Shown one piece after another: positions 2,060 to 60,687 of a stretch of DNA of 64,000 bases (its first letter is position 1; each line of letters begins with the position of its first letter). This stretch comes from an uncultured Porticoccus sp. (GTDB lineage Bacteria > Pseudomonadota > Gammaproteobacteria > Pseudomonadales > Porticoccaceae). The translations under genes were made by a program, and so were the position numbers. The stretch covers positions 248,001 to 312,000 of the forward strand of contig CAMYLT010000008.1 in NCBI GenBank assembly GCA_947259505.1. The letters are read 5' to 3'. Under the pieces are notes generated by a model. It worked only from the letters and a program-made list of their open reading frames with translations, did not search any database and was not told where the DNA came from.

Positions 2060-3712
2060 TTGCGGCAACAGAAAACAGACGGTACACCTCGGGCTCAGGA
2101 TACCCACGTTCCAGAGGCGCCTTCATCAGCTGAACAGGTTAAGTCTGCCAAACCGGCCCGTGGCTTGCTGCGATCCAGTGGCGTGGTCAGCAGCATGACC
2201 ATGCTCTCCAGGATTCTGGGGTTGATCCGCGATATGGTGTTCGCCCGCATCATTGGTGCTGATGCCTTGGCCGATGCTTTTTTTGTGGCGTTTAAAATCC
2301 CTAATTTCTTTCGTCGCTTGTTTGCCGAAGGGGCATTTTCTCAGGCCTTTGTGCCGGTTCTCGCTGAATATCGTGAAAAAGGTAGTCCTGCGGCAGTCAA
2401 AGCGTTGCTGGACAGCGTTGCCGGTGTCTTGGGGTCGGCACTGATTGCGCTGACCCTGGTGGTTGTGCTGGCCTCGCCCCTGGTTACCGGGCTGTTTGCT
2501 TTTGGTTTCTGGCTCGATTATCCGGATAAATTCGCGGCTGCCAGCGATATGTTGCGGATTACCTTTCCCTATTTGTTGCTGATTTCCCTGACGGGTTTGG
2601 CTGGTGCCATCCTCAACAGCTATGACCGGTTTGCCGTGCCGGCTTTCACGCCGGTCTTACTGAATATCACTCTGATTGCTGCTGCATTGGTCGCTGCTCC
2701 CTGGTTTGCCACTCCCGTCTATGCCTTGGCCTGGGGTGTGCTTGCTGCAGGTGTGGTGCAACTGTTATTCCAGTTGCCGTTCCTGGCGCGCATTCACATG
2801 GTGCCTTATCCCCGCATGGATTGGCGTGATGCTGGCGTCAGACGCATTTTGCGGTTGATGGCACCGGCGATCTTTGGCGTTTCGGTCAGTCAGATCAATT
2901 TGTTGTTGGACACGGTGATCGCCTCATTCCTGCCTACAGGTAGTATTTCATGGCTGTATTACTCTGATCGTTTGTCTGAACTGCCACTCGGAGTGTTTGG
3001 TGTCGCGATTGCTACAGTGATTCTGCCGAGTTTGTCCCGTCAGCACTCGGCGCAGGCCCCTGAAGTGTTTAATCGCACCCTGGATTGGGCTCTGCGGATG
3101 ATTCTGCTGGTTGCCGTCCCCGCTGCAGTGGCTTTGGTGATACTGGCGGAGCCGATTCTACTGTCACTCTTCTACTACGGAGACGTGATTACAGCACGCG
3201 ATATGACCATGGCTTCACTTAGTCTACGAGCCTATGCCTGTGGTCTGATCGCGTTCATGTTGATCAAGGTGTTGGCGCCAGGATTTTTTGCCCGTCAAGA
3301 CATGAAAACACCGGTAAAAATAGGGGTGATTGCACTGGTCAGTAATATGGTGCTGAACTTGTTGTTTGCGGTGCCCATGCATCTCTACTGGGGTATTGGG
3401 CATGTGGGGTTGGCGCTGGCAACGGCCATTTCGGCCATGCTGAATGCTGGCCTGCTGTACAAGGGGTTGCGCCGCCTGAAAGTTTACCGTCCCGAACCGG
3501 GTTGGGGGCGTTTTTCCGTGATGCTCTTCGCCGCATCAGCTGCTATGGCACTGGTGCTAACGGGCTTTATTTATTATCTGCAGGACTGGCAATTCTGGGC
3601 ATGGTGGCAGCGAGCTGGTTGGTTGGCCTTGATTTGCTGCTCTGGTGCCTTTGTGTACGGTGTGTGCCTGCTATTGGGCGGTTTGCGCCTATCACATTTA
3701 CGTCACTCCTAA
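2060..3712 (+). CDS. murJ: Lipid II flippase MurJ
   Basis: Polytopic membrane protein of the MOP superfamily that moves lipid II across the inner membrane for peptidoglycan synthesis. From about residue 40 it reads VVSSMTMLSRILGLIRD, FFVAFKIPNFFRRLFAEGAF and QAFVPVLAEY, all hallmarks of MurJ/MviN, followed by hydrophobic segments to the C-terminus. At 550 residues it is about 35 longer than usual because of a polar Pro/Ala/Glu-rich N-terminal extension. The start used is a TTG at 2060 with AAGGCGG upstream. No ATG exists before the conserved core, and a TTG near residue 36 is the alternative. A roughly 155-base gap separates it from ribF. Confidence 0.93.
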   Translation: MRQQKTDGTPRAQDTHVPEAPSSAEQVKSAKPARGLLRSSGVVSSMTMLSRILGLIRDMVFARIIGADALADAFFVAFKIPNFFRRLFAEGAFSQAFVPVLAEYREKGSPAAVKALLDSVAGVLGSALIALTLVVVLASPLVTGLFAFGFWLDYPDKFAAASDMLRITFPYLLLISLTGLAGAILNSYDRFAVPAFTPVLLNITLIAAALVAAPWFATPVYALAWGVLAAGVVQLLFQLPFLARIHMVPYPRMDWRDAGVRRILRLMAPAIFGVSVSQINLLLDTVIASFLPTGSISWLYYSDRLSELPLGVFGVAIATVILPSLSRQHSAQAPEVFNRTLDWALRMILLVAVPAAVALVILAEPILLSLFYYGDVITARDMTMASLSLRAYACGLIAFMLIKVLAPGFFARQDMKTPVKIGVIALVSNMVLNLLFAVPMHLYWGIGHVGLALATAISAMLNAGLLYKGLRRLKVYRPEPGWGRFSVMLFAASAAMALVLTGFIYYLQDWQFWAWWQRAGWLALICCSGAFVYGVCLLLGGLRLSHLRHS

Positions 3713-56855: not shown

Positions 56856-57112
56856 AATCAATTTCCTGTTTTGGTCGGTGTGGCTTCTTCGGTTTAGATT
56901 TTTAGGATTTGTGTGGTGGTTGCACGGCAACCTTGGCGGATATTGGCGCTATATGATTGTCAAAAGCAGCCAGCGGGTTTTTGGTTGCCCGATGGGCAAG
57001 GTGCTTTCAGCCTGCGGATTGTTCTAGTGCCGCGCGAGGCAAGATCCCGTGCTACAAAGTGGGTAGATGCAGGGCCGAGATAACAATTCACCGAGGGGTA
57101 CAGCATTAACAA
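56856..57112 (-). promoter_or_regulatory. Long structured leader of the SulP gene
   Basis: About 257 nt separate the likely transcription start from the SulP ATG. Two tight perfect hairpins occur in it: GGTTGC-ACG-GCAACC (56918-56932) and TTGCCC-GAT-GGGCAA (56985-56999). No ORF of note is present on either strand in this part. It may be a regulatory leader, but I recognise no known riboswitch. Confidence 0.4.
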
Positions 57113-57147
57113 GGGGCGCATTATAGCCCCTTGCCCCACAGAGGCAA
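57111..57147 (-). promoter_or_regulatory. SulP promoter with -10 inside a dyad
   Basis: On the minus strand, TTGCCT (57142-57147) and a perfect TATAAT (57120-57125) are separated by 16 bases. The -10 lies in the centre of a 7-bp dyad, AAGGGGC (57111-57117) and GCCCCTT (57126-57132), which could be an operator for a repressor or a cruciform. Predicted start near 57112. Confidence 0.6.
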
Positions 57148-57201
57148 CGTGGGGGACAGAGCCAGTCACATGGTTAGTTGGGAAAAGATATACAGCAATA
57201 A

Positions 57202-57230
57202 TTTATAGGGTATCTGTCTTCGGCTACAAT
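57202..57230 (+). promoter_or_regulatory. Promoter of prfC
   Basis: TTTATA (57202-57207) and TACAAT (57225-57230) are separated by 17 bases. Transcription would start near 57238, 16 bases before the first prfC ATG. Confidence 0.55.
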
Positions 57231-57253
57231 GCGCGCCTCACACTACTTACCGA

Positions 57254-58834
57254 ATGTTGCCCATGAGCCGGAAATTCCAGAATCGACGTACTTTTGCGAT
57301 TATTTCGCACCCCGACGCCGGTAAAACCACCATTACTGAAAAGCTGCTGCTGTTCGGCAACCTGATTCAGGTGGCCGGTACCGTGAAAGGCAAGAAGAGC
57401 GACCGTCACGCCACTTCCGACTGGATGCAGATGGAAAAGGAGCGGGGCATTTCTGTTACGTCGTCTGTGATGCAGTTTCCTTACCACGATGCCATGGTCA
57501 ATCTGCTGGATACCCCCGGACACGAAGACTTCTCCGAGGACACCTATCGCACCCTGACGGCGGTGGATTCGGCGCTGATGGTCATTGATGGCGCGAAGGG
57601 TGTCGAGGCTCGCACTATCAAGCTGATGGATGTGTGTCGATTACGGGACACACCGATTATTTCTTTCGTCAACAAGATGGACCGGGATATCCGCGATCCC
57701 GTTGATCTGCTGGATGAAATTGAATCCGTGCTAAAAATTGCCGGAGCACCCATCAACTGGCCGATCGGCATGGGCCACGATTTCAAGGGGGTCTACAACC
57801 TCTACACGGACACCATTCATGTGTTCAAGCCGGGGCAGGGTCACACCATTCCCGAGGATATCCAGATCAAGGGTATCGATTCCGATGAGGCCACTGAGCT
57901 GCTCGGTTACTATGTGGATGAAATCCGCGAGCAGATTGAGTTGGTGCGAGGTGCGACCCACCAGTTTGATTTGGAGTTGTTCCTGGCCGGTCAGCTGACA
58001 CCGGTATTCTTCGGTACTGCGCTCTCCAACTTTGGTGTACGCGAGATGCTCGACCACTTCGTACAGTGGGCACCGGCACCACAGCCGCGCCAAGCCATTG
58101 AGCGTGTAGTGGAGCCAGGCGAGGAGCCGTTTTCCGGCTTTGTTTTCAAGATTCAGGCGAACATGGATCCGAAACATCGGGACCGTATCGCCTTTATGCG
58201 GATCTGCTCCGGTAAATACGTACAGGGCATGAAAATGCACCATGTGCGCACCGGCAAGGATGTGCGTATCGCCGATGCGGTGGGTTTTAAGGCCGGCGAG
58301 CGGATGGCGGTGGAAGAGGCGGTTGCCGGGGATATAATCGGCCTGCACAACCACGGCACCATCCAGATTGGCGATACGTTTACCGCTGGGGAAGACCTGA
58401 AGTTTACCGGTATTCCCCACTTTGCCCCGGAACTGTTCCGTCGCATTCGTCTGCGCGACCCCATGAAAACCAAGCAGTTGCAAAAAGGCCTGCAGCAGTT
58501 ATCTGAGGAGGGCAGTACCCAGGTCTTTTTCCCCCTCAATAACAATGACATTGTGGTCGGTGCTGTGGGTCAACTGCAGTTCGAGGTGGTGGCTTATCGC
58601 CTCAAGGACGAATATGGCGTAGAAGCAGTTTACGAGCCAGTTAATGTCTACACTGCCCGCTGGGTCGAGTCCGAGGACAATAAAAAAATCGAGGAGTTGA
58701 AGCGAAAAGTGCCAGATGGTGTGGCGCTTGACGGCGGTGGCCACCTCACTTATCTGGCTTCTACTAGAGTCAACCTGGCGCTCACCGAAGAACGCTATCC
58801 AGAGATCAATTTCAGGGCTACCCGCGAGCTGTAA
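57254..58834 (+). CDS. prfC: Peptide chain release factor 3
   Basis: A 526-residue translational GTPase that speeds release of RF1/RF2 after termination. GTPase motifs: [15 protein letters not shown] (G1), RGISVTSSV (G2), [14 protein letters not shown] (G3) and NKMDRD (G4). Domain II/III includes [29 protein letters not shown] at 57254, with another at 57263; neither has a strong Shine-Dalgarno. It may be first of a long plus-strand cluster. Its stop codon (58832-58834) is immediately followed by the 58835-58904 interleaved repeat that controls the next gene's start region. Confidence 0.97.
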
Positions 58835-58904
58835 TTCCTCCGCAGTGGGGCTTCACCTATACTTTTTCCGATGCTCTTGATTGCGGAGGAAGCCGTGAAG
58901 CCCC
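58835..58904 (+). promoter_or_regulatory. Interleaved A-B-A'-B' inverted repeats masking the VOC ribosome-binding site and start
   Basis: A: TTCCTCCGCA (58835-58844) is the exact complement of A': TGCGGAGGAA (58882-58891), which holds the GGAGGA Shine-Dalgarno. B: GGGGCTTCAC (58847-58856) is the exact complement of B': GTGAAGCCCC (58895-58904), which begins with the GTG start codon. The order A-B-A'-B' allows a pseudoknot or two alternative hairpins, not a simple nested stem. A starts at the first base after the prfC stop. Loops between A and B (2 bases) and between A' and B' (3 bases) are short for two full 10-bp helices at once, so the pairings may be mutually exclusive. Confidence 0.7.
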
Positions 58905-59317
58905 AGACCTCTCCTCGGCTGACCCACCTGGCTTTGCATGTGGTGGATATGGATGCCTGTATCGAGTTTTATCGTTATTACTGCGGCATGGTGATCTGCC
59001 ATGAACGCAGCACAGCACAACAGCGTATTGTCTGGTTGGCCGAACCCGGTCGCGAACGGGAATTTATTTTCGTGTTGATGGATGGTGGTCGCGACCTCAA
59101 CCTGCCGAAAGACGACTACCGCCATTTCGGATTTGCCCTGCCCAGTCGCGCAGCAGTGGATGATGTCTCGCATCGTGCAGATGAGCGCGGCGAACTGGTT
59201 TGGCCACCCCGGGAGGAACCCTATCCCGTGGGTTACTATTGCGGCCTGCGTGACCCCAACGGCAATTATGTGGAATTCAGTTACGGCCAACCGTTGGGGC
59301 CTGGTGCGCCGCAATAA
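58895..59317 (+). CDS. VOC-family (glyoxalase/dioxygenase superfamily) protein
   Basis: A 140-residue protein with two beta-alpha-beta-beta-beta motifs of the VOC fold: THLALHVVDMDACIEFYRYYCGM and a second at about 75 (RHFGFALPSRAAVDDVSHRADERGE). Metal ligands are likely H11, H77 and E127 (YVEFSYG), as in glyoxalase I-like enzymes; substrate unknown. The GTG at 58895 has GGAGGA five bases upstream. An ATG at 58871 is open in frame but has no Shine-Dalgarno and would run through the repeat. The start lies in the B' arm. Confidence 0.85.
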   Translation: MKPQTSPRLTHLALHVVDMDACIEFYRYYCGMVICHERSTAQQRIVWLAEPGREREFIFVLMDGGRDLNLPKDDYRHFGFALPSRAAVDDVSHRADERGELVWPPREEPYPVGYYCGLRDPNGNYVEFSYGQPLGPGAPQ

Positions 59318-59378
59318 GCGTTGCCCGTAAAGTGAGGTTGTAATAGTCTGGGCGCACTTGTCTGGCGTGGAGAAAAGC

Positions 59379-59876
59379 ATGGAGAACCGTCGTAAAACGG
59401 TCGTGATCAACAGCCGGTTTCAATACCAGTACGCCTTGGTCGCTGCGGCCGCTTCGGTACTATTAATCAATCTGTTTATCATCATCAATACCCTGCTACC
59501 GGATTATCACGGCTTTCTGCTTAGCGGTTGGCATACCCTGATTGTGGCATTCATCGAGATTCTGCTGATTGTCGGTGTTTGGTGGGGCTCTCTCATTTCC
59601 AGCCACCGTATTGCCGGACCAGTCTTTGTGATTGTGCGGGAAATAGAATTGCTTTCTGAGGGCGACTTTACCGCACGGGTAAGTTTGCGCCGACAGGACC
59701 TGTTTCAACCGGAAGCGGATGCCATCAACCAAAGTATTGAAATACTCCAGAAACGCCTGCATCGACTTAAAGAGATTGTCGAGGAAATAGAACATCAACC
59801 AGGCGGTTATGCTCCAGTGACCCCAGATCACATTGCCCGCCTGCGAGTTGAGCTGGAGCAGTTTAAAACCGCCTGA
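59379..59876 (+). CDS. Stand-alone membrane HAMP-domain protein
   Basis: A 165-residue protein with two membrane helices (VAAAASVLLINLFIIINTLL, LIVAFIEILLIVGVWWG) and a HAMP domain right after (SSHRIAGPVFVIVREIELLSEGDFTARVSLRRQD), then a coiled-coil tail (IEILQKRLHRLKEIVEEIEH). It lacks any kinase, cyclase or MCP output domain and ends soon after the HAMP. Such short HAMP proteins occur in gammaproteobacteria; their partners are unknown. GGAGA precedes the ATG at 59379. Confidence 0.8.
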   Translation: MENRRKTVVINSRFQYQYALVAAAASVLLINLFIIINTLLPDYHGFLLSGWHTLIVAFIEILLIVGVWWGSLISSHRIAGPVFVIVREIELLSEGDFTARVSLRRQDLFQPEADAINQSIEILQKRLHRLKEIVEEIEHQPGGYAPVTPDHIARLRVELEQFKTA

Positions 59877-59937
59877 TATACGCGTCAGGTATTGCAACGA
59901 CCATCGCCACCCGCCCGCTAATTGGACCCCTAAGCCC

Positions 59938-60687
59938 TTGCCAGATCCCTCCGTCTTCTTGTTACTTGTGGTTATCGCTTTCGCGGCGGGGTTTATCTCC
60001 TCTATCGCCGGAGCGGGAGGCGTCCTCACACTTCCTGCACTGCTGTGGGCTGGATTGCCGCCGATCACCGCATTGGCTACCAACAAAGTGCAGAGCACCC
60101 TTGGTACGCTGTCATCTACCTGGAATTTTTTTCGCAAGGGTCATCTTGACCTAAAGCCGCTAGTCCCCTCAATGATGAGCGCGTTAGTTGGTTCCTGTGT
60201 CGGCACCTGGACGGTGCAACAGGTAGATAACGAGTTACTGGGAATACTGATCCCGGTAATGTTGATTGCTATTGGCCTGTATTTTTTGATTTCTCCGCGT
60301 ATGACAGATGAGCACCGTGAAGCACGCCTGACACCCGTTCAATTCGCCCTGACAGCGGCACCTCTGATGGGATTTTACGGCGGGTTTTTTGGCCCCGGCA
60401 TGGGTTCAATATTCCCCTTTCTGATGGTGTGGTTGATGGGATATGGCCTGCGCAGGGCCACCGCTCAGACCAAGGCTATGGTGCTGTCCGTGAATGGCAT
60501 TTCCGCCACGATTTTTATTATTGGTGGCCATGTGATCTGGCCGCTGGCAATTGGTATGTCGCTGGCACAAATTGTCGGCGCCAGGTTGGGGTCTAACCTG
60601 GTGATCAGTCGCGGTGCTGCACTGGTCCAGCCGGTGATTATCGCGGTGACATTGGTTGTAGCCCTTAAATTGTTGGTGATGCCGTGA
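59938..60687 (+). CDS. TauE/SafE-family membrane transporter
   Basis: About 249 residues with about eight hydrophobic segments: SSIAGAGGVLTLPALLWAGLPPITALATNK at the start and GFYGGFFGPGMGSIFPFLMVW in the middle, the two TauE/SafE (DUF81) repeats. The family is linked to sulfite, sulfonate or organosulfur export and uptake; substrate unknown here. The start is uncertain; TTG at 59938 is the first reasonable one, since upstream codons are unlike the family. The stop overlaps the next gene by 4 bases (GTGA). Confidence 0.82.
   Translation: MPDPSVFLLLVVIAFAAGFISSIAGAGGVLTLPALLWAGLPPITALATNKVQSTLGTLSSTWNFFRKGHLDLKPLVPSMMSALVGSCVGTWTVQQVDNELLGILIPVMLIAIGLYFLISPRMTDEHREARLTPVQFALTAAPLMGFYGGFFGPGMGSIFPFLMVWLMGYGLRRATAQTKAMVLSVNGISATIFIIGGHVIWPLAIGMSLAQIVGARLGSNLVISRGAALVQPVIIAVTLVVALKLLVMP

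Follow-up and report, generated by a model that had tools for sequence, protein, structure and literature searches.

The start region of a VOC/glyoxalase-superfamily gene that follows prfC is complementary, in two perfect and interleaved pairs of arms, to the sequence between the prfC stop codon and a -10-like box. Judged from predicted folds, the ribosome site of this gene is paired on long RNA that enters from prfC and accessible on short RNA that begins inside the junction. The reading that we favour, and tentatively, is an RNA mask that would shut the VOC start on prfC read-through RNA, with expression of VOC from its own promoter, located in the loop between the arms. The arm pairs with their rarity, the costs of opening and the -10 box of five genus members are present in the sequence or computed in silico; we infer that prfC read-through RNA is made, that the VOC promoter is active and that the selected role is masking.

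The prfC-VOC junction and its complementary arms

The window, which is the whole stretch of 64,000 nucleotides that was analysed, has the following features at the junction:

57254..58834, + strand: prfC, peptide chain release factor 3 (NCBIfam TIGR00503, E 3.7e-258), open reading frame with the stop codon TAA at 58832-58834
58835..58844, + strand: arm A, TTCCTCCGCA, immediately 3' of the prfC stop, absent from the four relatives with prfC-VOC
58846..58856, + strand: arm B, TGGGGCTTCAC, with a counterpart in L020 that carries four double changes (counted by eye)
58858..58863, + strand: -10-like box TATACT of a candidate VOC promoter, with TATACT/TATAAT in 5/5 genus junctions and no good -35
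58862..58870, + strand: arm C, CTTTTTCCG, which in the predicted fold with A covered pairs instead of A with the Shine-Dalgarno stretch 58884-58892
58882..58891, + strand: arm A', TGCGGAGGAA, which contains the Shine-Dalgarno GGAGGA at 58885-58890
58895..58905, + strand: arm B', GTGAAGCCCCA, whose first bases are the GTG start codon
58895..59317, + strand: VOC/glyoxalase-superfamily gene, 140 aa from GTG (Pfam PF00903, E 2.5e-8), open reading frame

In an inverted-repeat search, A and A' form 10 bp and B and B' form 11 bp; both pairs are 100% complementary and interleaved in the order A-B-A'-B'. The linkers are 1 nt from A to B (58845), 25 nt from B to A', where the sequence is CTATACTTTTT, and 3 nt from A' to B' (58892-58894). 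The initial annotation had described two perfect interleaved pairs, and both are indeed perfect, but it gave 10 bp for B-B' and 2 nt for the A-B linker, which are corrected here to 11 bp and 1 nt. It had placed A directly after the prfC TAA, GGAGGA inside A' and the GTG at the opening of B', and all three placements are accurate.

A longer reading of VOC begins at an in-frame ATG at 58871, which has no Shine-Dalgarno, lies eight codons 5' of the GTG and is found at the predicted transcription start; a near-leaderless VOC start at this ATG is possible. In 57000-60000 Rfam has no match at E 1 or below, a scan of 58600-59500 finds no intrinsic terminator, and a search for viral relatives of VOC finds none. 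A dispersed repeat was considered and rejected, since the 80-nt stretch is single-copy in the genome (besides itself, two partial matches at E 2.08).

Predicted folding of the junction and the candidate VOC promoter

Opening of the start region costs 25.2 kcal/mol on a long RNA (58772-58954) versus 8.3 kcal/mol on RNA from 58870, and 0/200 shuffles of 58835-58869 attain the higher value (shuffle mean 12.4). The cost depends on the 5' end of the RNA, with 21.4 kcal/mol at 58845, 12.0 at 58857 and 8.3 at 58869. The 111-nt junction fold has a z of -3.56, 0/200 shuffles being equally stable, and its lowest-energy form contains A-A' and not B-B'. Dinucleotides are kept only in the shuffles for this z and for the interleaved-pair counts; the duplex, opening-cost, permutation and -10 controls are letter shuffles.

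The predicted unpaired fraction of the Shine-Dalgarno is 0.001 on the long RNA and 0.42-0.46 on the short RNA, with a median of 0.39 over 217 starts in 464 kb of one contig, a set taken by a crude rule (open reading frames that carry a Shine-Dalgarno motif and have 130 codons or more), in which VOC is included and false genes are probable. Within this set VOC ranks lowest in Shine-Dalgarno accessibility, and its perfect run to the start-codon region is the longest; a 10-bp run to the Shine-Dalgarno region is found at one other start. The accessibility of the VOC start codon is not extreme, since 28/217 starts have an equal or lower value. With the lowest Shine-Dalgarno accessibility of all 217 starts and a cost above that of 200/200 shuffles, the masking of ribosome site and start that had been proposed for the repeat is supported in silico, and the ribosome site of VOC is predicted to be paired on long RNA.

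Masking of a single arm leaves 20.9 (A), 22.4 (B) or 24.9 kcal/mol (C, masked as 58861-58870), masking of two arms leaves 13.4 (A and B, or A and C) or 23.0 kcal/mol (B and C), and masking of all three leaves 12.4 kcal/mol. To close the site, A is thus sufficient, and so are B and C jointly. The folding program excludes pseudoknots and the opening costs are those of pseudoknot-free folds; a pseudoknot is not needed for masking.

The TATACT at 58858-58863 is likely the -10 box of VOC's own promoter. TATACT/TATAAT is found upstream of VOC in 5/5 genus members with the prfC-VOC junction, at 29 to 31 bases from the start codon in four of them and at 47 in L014, and the surrounding bases differ. 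No -35 hexamer was found and a two-hexamer promoter scan is negative. The -10 match alone, scored by a hand-written weight matrix, is weak, with p of 0.02, 0.02, 0.26, 0.06 and 0.22 in the five members. Among 51 VOC upstream regions, a set without duplicates, without loci whose match is weak (E above 1e-30) and without those that have little sequence upstream, 8 are at p of 0.05 or below and 2.6 are expected. RNA from the candidate promoter is predicted to start near 58870, which would leave out A and B and almost the whole of C; with its -10 box 3' of B and 5' of A', VOC's own promoter would give RNA that contains neither A nor B. In L014, three to four tandem TAATGATAG-like units are located between the -10 box and the VOC start and extend the leader to 47 bases; no such units were seen in the other four genus members with the junction.

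In the favoured mechanism, the arms of transcripts running in from prfC would fold over the VOC start site and keep it shut, either by A-A', which would close the Shine-Dalgarno, or by the nested B-B' and C, which would close start codon and Shine-Dalgarno, and this closure would hold with or without a ribosome on the prfC stop. VOC would be expressed from its own promoter, whose -10 box is inside the loop that separates B from A', and RNA from near 58870, without A, B and most of C, would leave the ribosome site as accessible as that of an ordinary gene. A stronger version describes a double lock, in which the interleaved A and B and the third arm substitute for each other, the site is shut on read-through RNA whether or not prfC is translated, loop-promoter RNA escapes, and the B lock has been kept by compensatory change in a sister species; the whole of it is unlikely. 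If the mask is real, it would be a translation-level insulation of a chromosomal gene from its neighbour by RNA folding, the interleaved arms would free the lock from dependence on upstream translation, and three sister species would seem to use a local hairpin instead.

In T4 I-TevI and Aeh1 mobE, long RNA from upstream promoters folds over the ribosome site, and a close upstream promoter gives a short RNA without the fold sequence, which is translated (PMC2988022). The VOC junction is similar, because its long RNA is predicted to hide the ribosome site and a short RNA, if made, to be open, and it is different from the hairpin of these genes, because VOC is chromosomal, has two or three mutually replaceable upstream arms, and has a promoter, read-through and translation that are putative. 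The best reading of the VOC junction would be insulation against prfC read-through with the logic of T4 I-TevI. Read-through RNA also hides the transposase ribosome site in IS10 and IS50, a protection of these insertion sequences that likewise consists of read-through masking; unlike them, the VOC junction has no known insertion sequence. Literature queries in open libraries, a scope that says little further, found nothing on Porticoccus with prfC and, by multi-term queries, nothing on read-through ribosome-site masks; terms for insertion-sequence-type read-through protection, in the same open-library scope, also found nothing.

Junctions of the same genus and the origin of the arms

The prfC gene is present in 17/17 genus genomes searched (this one included) and a VOC match in 5/17, and VOC follows prfC in all five genomes that have the match; the comparison is one of 5 species in one genus, with several of the 17 genomes incomplete and VOC absence established by search only. 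L020 and L004 are labels of one genome, and L003/L019 and L005/L021 are grouped alike. A-A' is found in 0/4 relatives with the prfC-VOC order (1/5 species) and B-B' in 1/4, namely L020. In the B-B' register, 2 to 3 of 12 positions pair in L019, L021 and L014. As a genus-wide element, A-A' or B-B' was rejected, since neither is found in L003/L019, L005/L021 or L014.

L020 has the most similar prfC (94%) and is without A. Its TACCGGGTTCAC before the -10 box pairs with ATGGACCCGGTA at the start, which gives 11/12 pairs (10 Watson-Crick and one G-U) in exactly the register found here, with four positions changed on both sides, as counted by eye. The placement of B in L020 is manual, with the start codon and the TTCAC that precedes the -10 box as fixed points, and the automatic alignment has its gaps elsewhere. 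Permutation gives 0.0005 for shuffling the nine bases after the ATG, and 0.0001 with fifteen bases and two-base register slack. The check for covariation in same-order relatives that had been suggested finds no A-A' (0/4) and finds B-B', with double changes, in one of the four.

The mask is not significant in 4/4 relatives. In L020 the opening cost is 12.1 kcal/mol on the long versus 8.5 on the short RNA, with 12.1 reached by 16.5% of shuffles, and in the other three relatives 15 to 35% of shuffles reach the long-RNA cost. When the start region is paired with the sequence that runs from the prfC stop up to the -10 box, the duplex energy is matched by 2% of shuffles for the window, 1% for L004, 28% for L003, 24% for L005 and 10.5% for L014. 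L003 has a different 12-pair run, rich in G-U, between the upstream stretch and the start region in another register (run p 0.026, duplex energy p 0.28), which was left out of the B-B' counts. By eye, L003, L005 and L014 each have a local hairpin that lies 3' of prfC and 5' of the -10 box. Conservation of pairing, as read from these sequences, appears weak. The full form, with both A-A' and B-B', is seen in this species only, of the five, and is probably young; its perfect arms suit recent mutation as well as selection.

A close rival to the mask, and one that we regard as a serious possibility, is a recent origin without function, in which the arms are the trace of template-switch (quasi-palindrome) replication mutations with little or no role, tolerated by VOC because of its own promoter. 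Template-switch events can create stems and multi-base compensatory changes in a single step (PMC8794818), and the junction is like such hairpins in its perfect reverse-complement repeats and multi-base compensatory changes. The perfection of both arm pairs, the presence of A-A' in one species only, the 8-base gap in L020 that overlaps A in the automatic alignment, and the four relatives with no significant mask are all in line with such an origin. It is less suited to two separate pairs whose 3' arms fall on the ribosome site and on the start codon, and the occurrence of B-B' in two species whose bases differ would demand more than one event, or selection; both selection and repeated template switching are compatible with these two species. 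Template switching is also a mechanism of mutation and not a function, unlike the mask. If the arms are only its trace, the junction would be a clean bacterial example of perfect start-site pairing that arises and is tolerated.

In another Porticoccaceae genus, L023 (same genome as L006) has by eye an acyltransferase-like gene between prfC, which ends at 2246, and VOC, at 3001, and L046 has a similar acyltransferase-like gene directly 3' of prfC, with VOC some 2 kb further on. Loss of this gene may have given rise to the direct prfC-VOC junction of the genus. Of the 12 genus genomes in which VOC has no match, 8 (L066, L068-L073 and L075) have a homologue of the gene at 59394 of the window at most 260 bases after prfC, a distance read by eye; this suggests that VOC was lost, or never gained, between prfC and the 59394-type gene.

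Rarity of interleaved pairs and the ribosome on the prfC stop

The window has one case of two interleaved perfect pairs that are each 10 bp or longer and lie within 80 nt, and neither a further 400 kb of this contig nor 18.56 Mb of dinucleotide shuffles has any, in agreement with the initial view that such pairs are very unlikely at random. When the minimum arm length is set to 9 bp, 5 cases (0.66 per genome) turn up in the shuffles and 1 in the 400 kb. Shuffled-sequence cases drop from 51 (8 bp) to 5 (9 bp), and by extrapolation from this drop the expectation at 10 bp or more is roughly 0.05 per genome, so the interleaved case is rare, yet possible given the number of windows read. A second interleaved pair, with 9-bp perfect arms, is found in the same genome at about 581-656 of L112, within a long open reading frame (minus strand, 1-1266). 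Since such a pair occurs inside a long open reading frame and five more occur in shuffles, interleaving as such is no mark of function, and the L112 pair is a useful negative control.

The extrapolated expectation and the 9/9 example of L112 give some room to chance, by which two ordinary inverted repeats happened to interleave and were spotted because many windows were read. This explanation is improbable in view of the 0 cases in 18.56 Mb of shuffles, of the two arms that both fall on the start site, and of L020, which keeps the B-B' pairing in the same register.

A further explanation, advanced in the initial annotation, is that a ribosome at the end of prfC sits on A during termination and thereby releases A', and that VOC initiation tracks the termination time on the RF3 gene via a pseudoknot or alternating hairpins. 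A adjoins the prfC stop directly, as this would require, but when 58817-58844, taken as the footprint of a ribosome at this stop, is kept single-stranded, the opening cost goes from 25.2 to 21.3 kcal/mol and no further, because B-B', which stays uncovered, and the nested helix C (58862-58870)/58884-58892 take over. That A alone, or B and C, is able to close the site argues against regulation by a ribosome at the stop. In L020 the same step acts the other way, with a rise from 12.1 to 14.8 kcal/mol, plausibly because the covered short palindrome otherwise competes for B, and none of the four relatives that share the gene order has A-A'. RNA unfolding is known to couple genes at a similar spacing, at +52 nt in rpmI-rplT, and both in this pair and in MS2 coat-lysis an RNA structure hides the ribosome site and could be disturbed by an upstream ribosome (PMC12548453). 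Unlike in these systems, a ribosome on the prfC stop reaches neither B nor C, so the predicted masking stays. Termination coupling was rejected as very unlikely, for the predicted opening costs give it no support.

The least credible explanation is a DNA-level element of inverted half-sites bound by a regulator around the promoter, for although A and B are located before the -10 box and A' and B' after it, the genome has no second copy of the 80-nt stretch, and 5/12 B positions differ in L020 (by eye) with the pairing kept, which a sequence-specific protein would not require.
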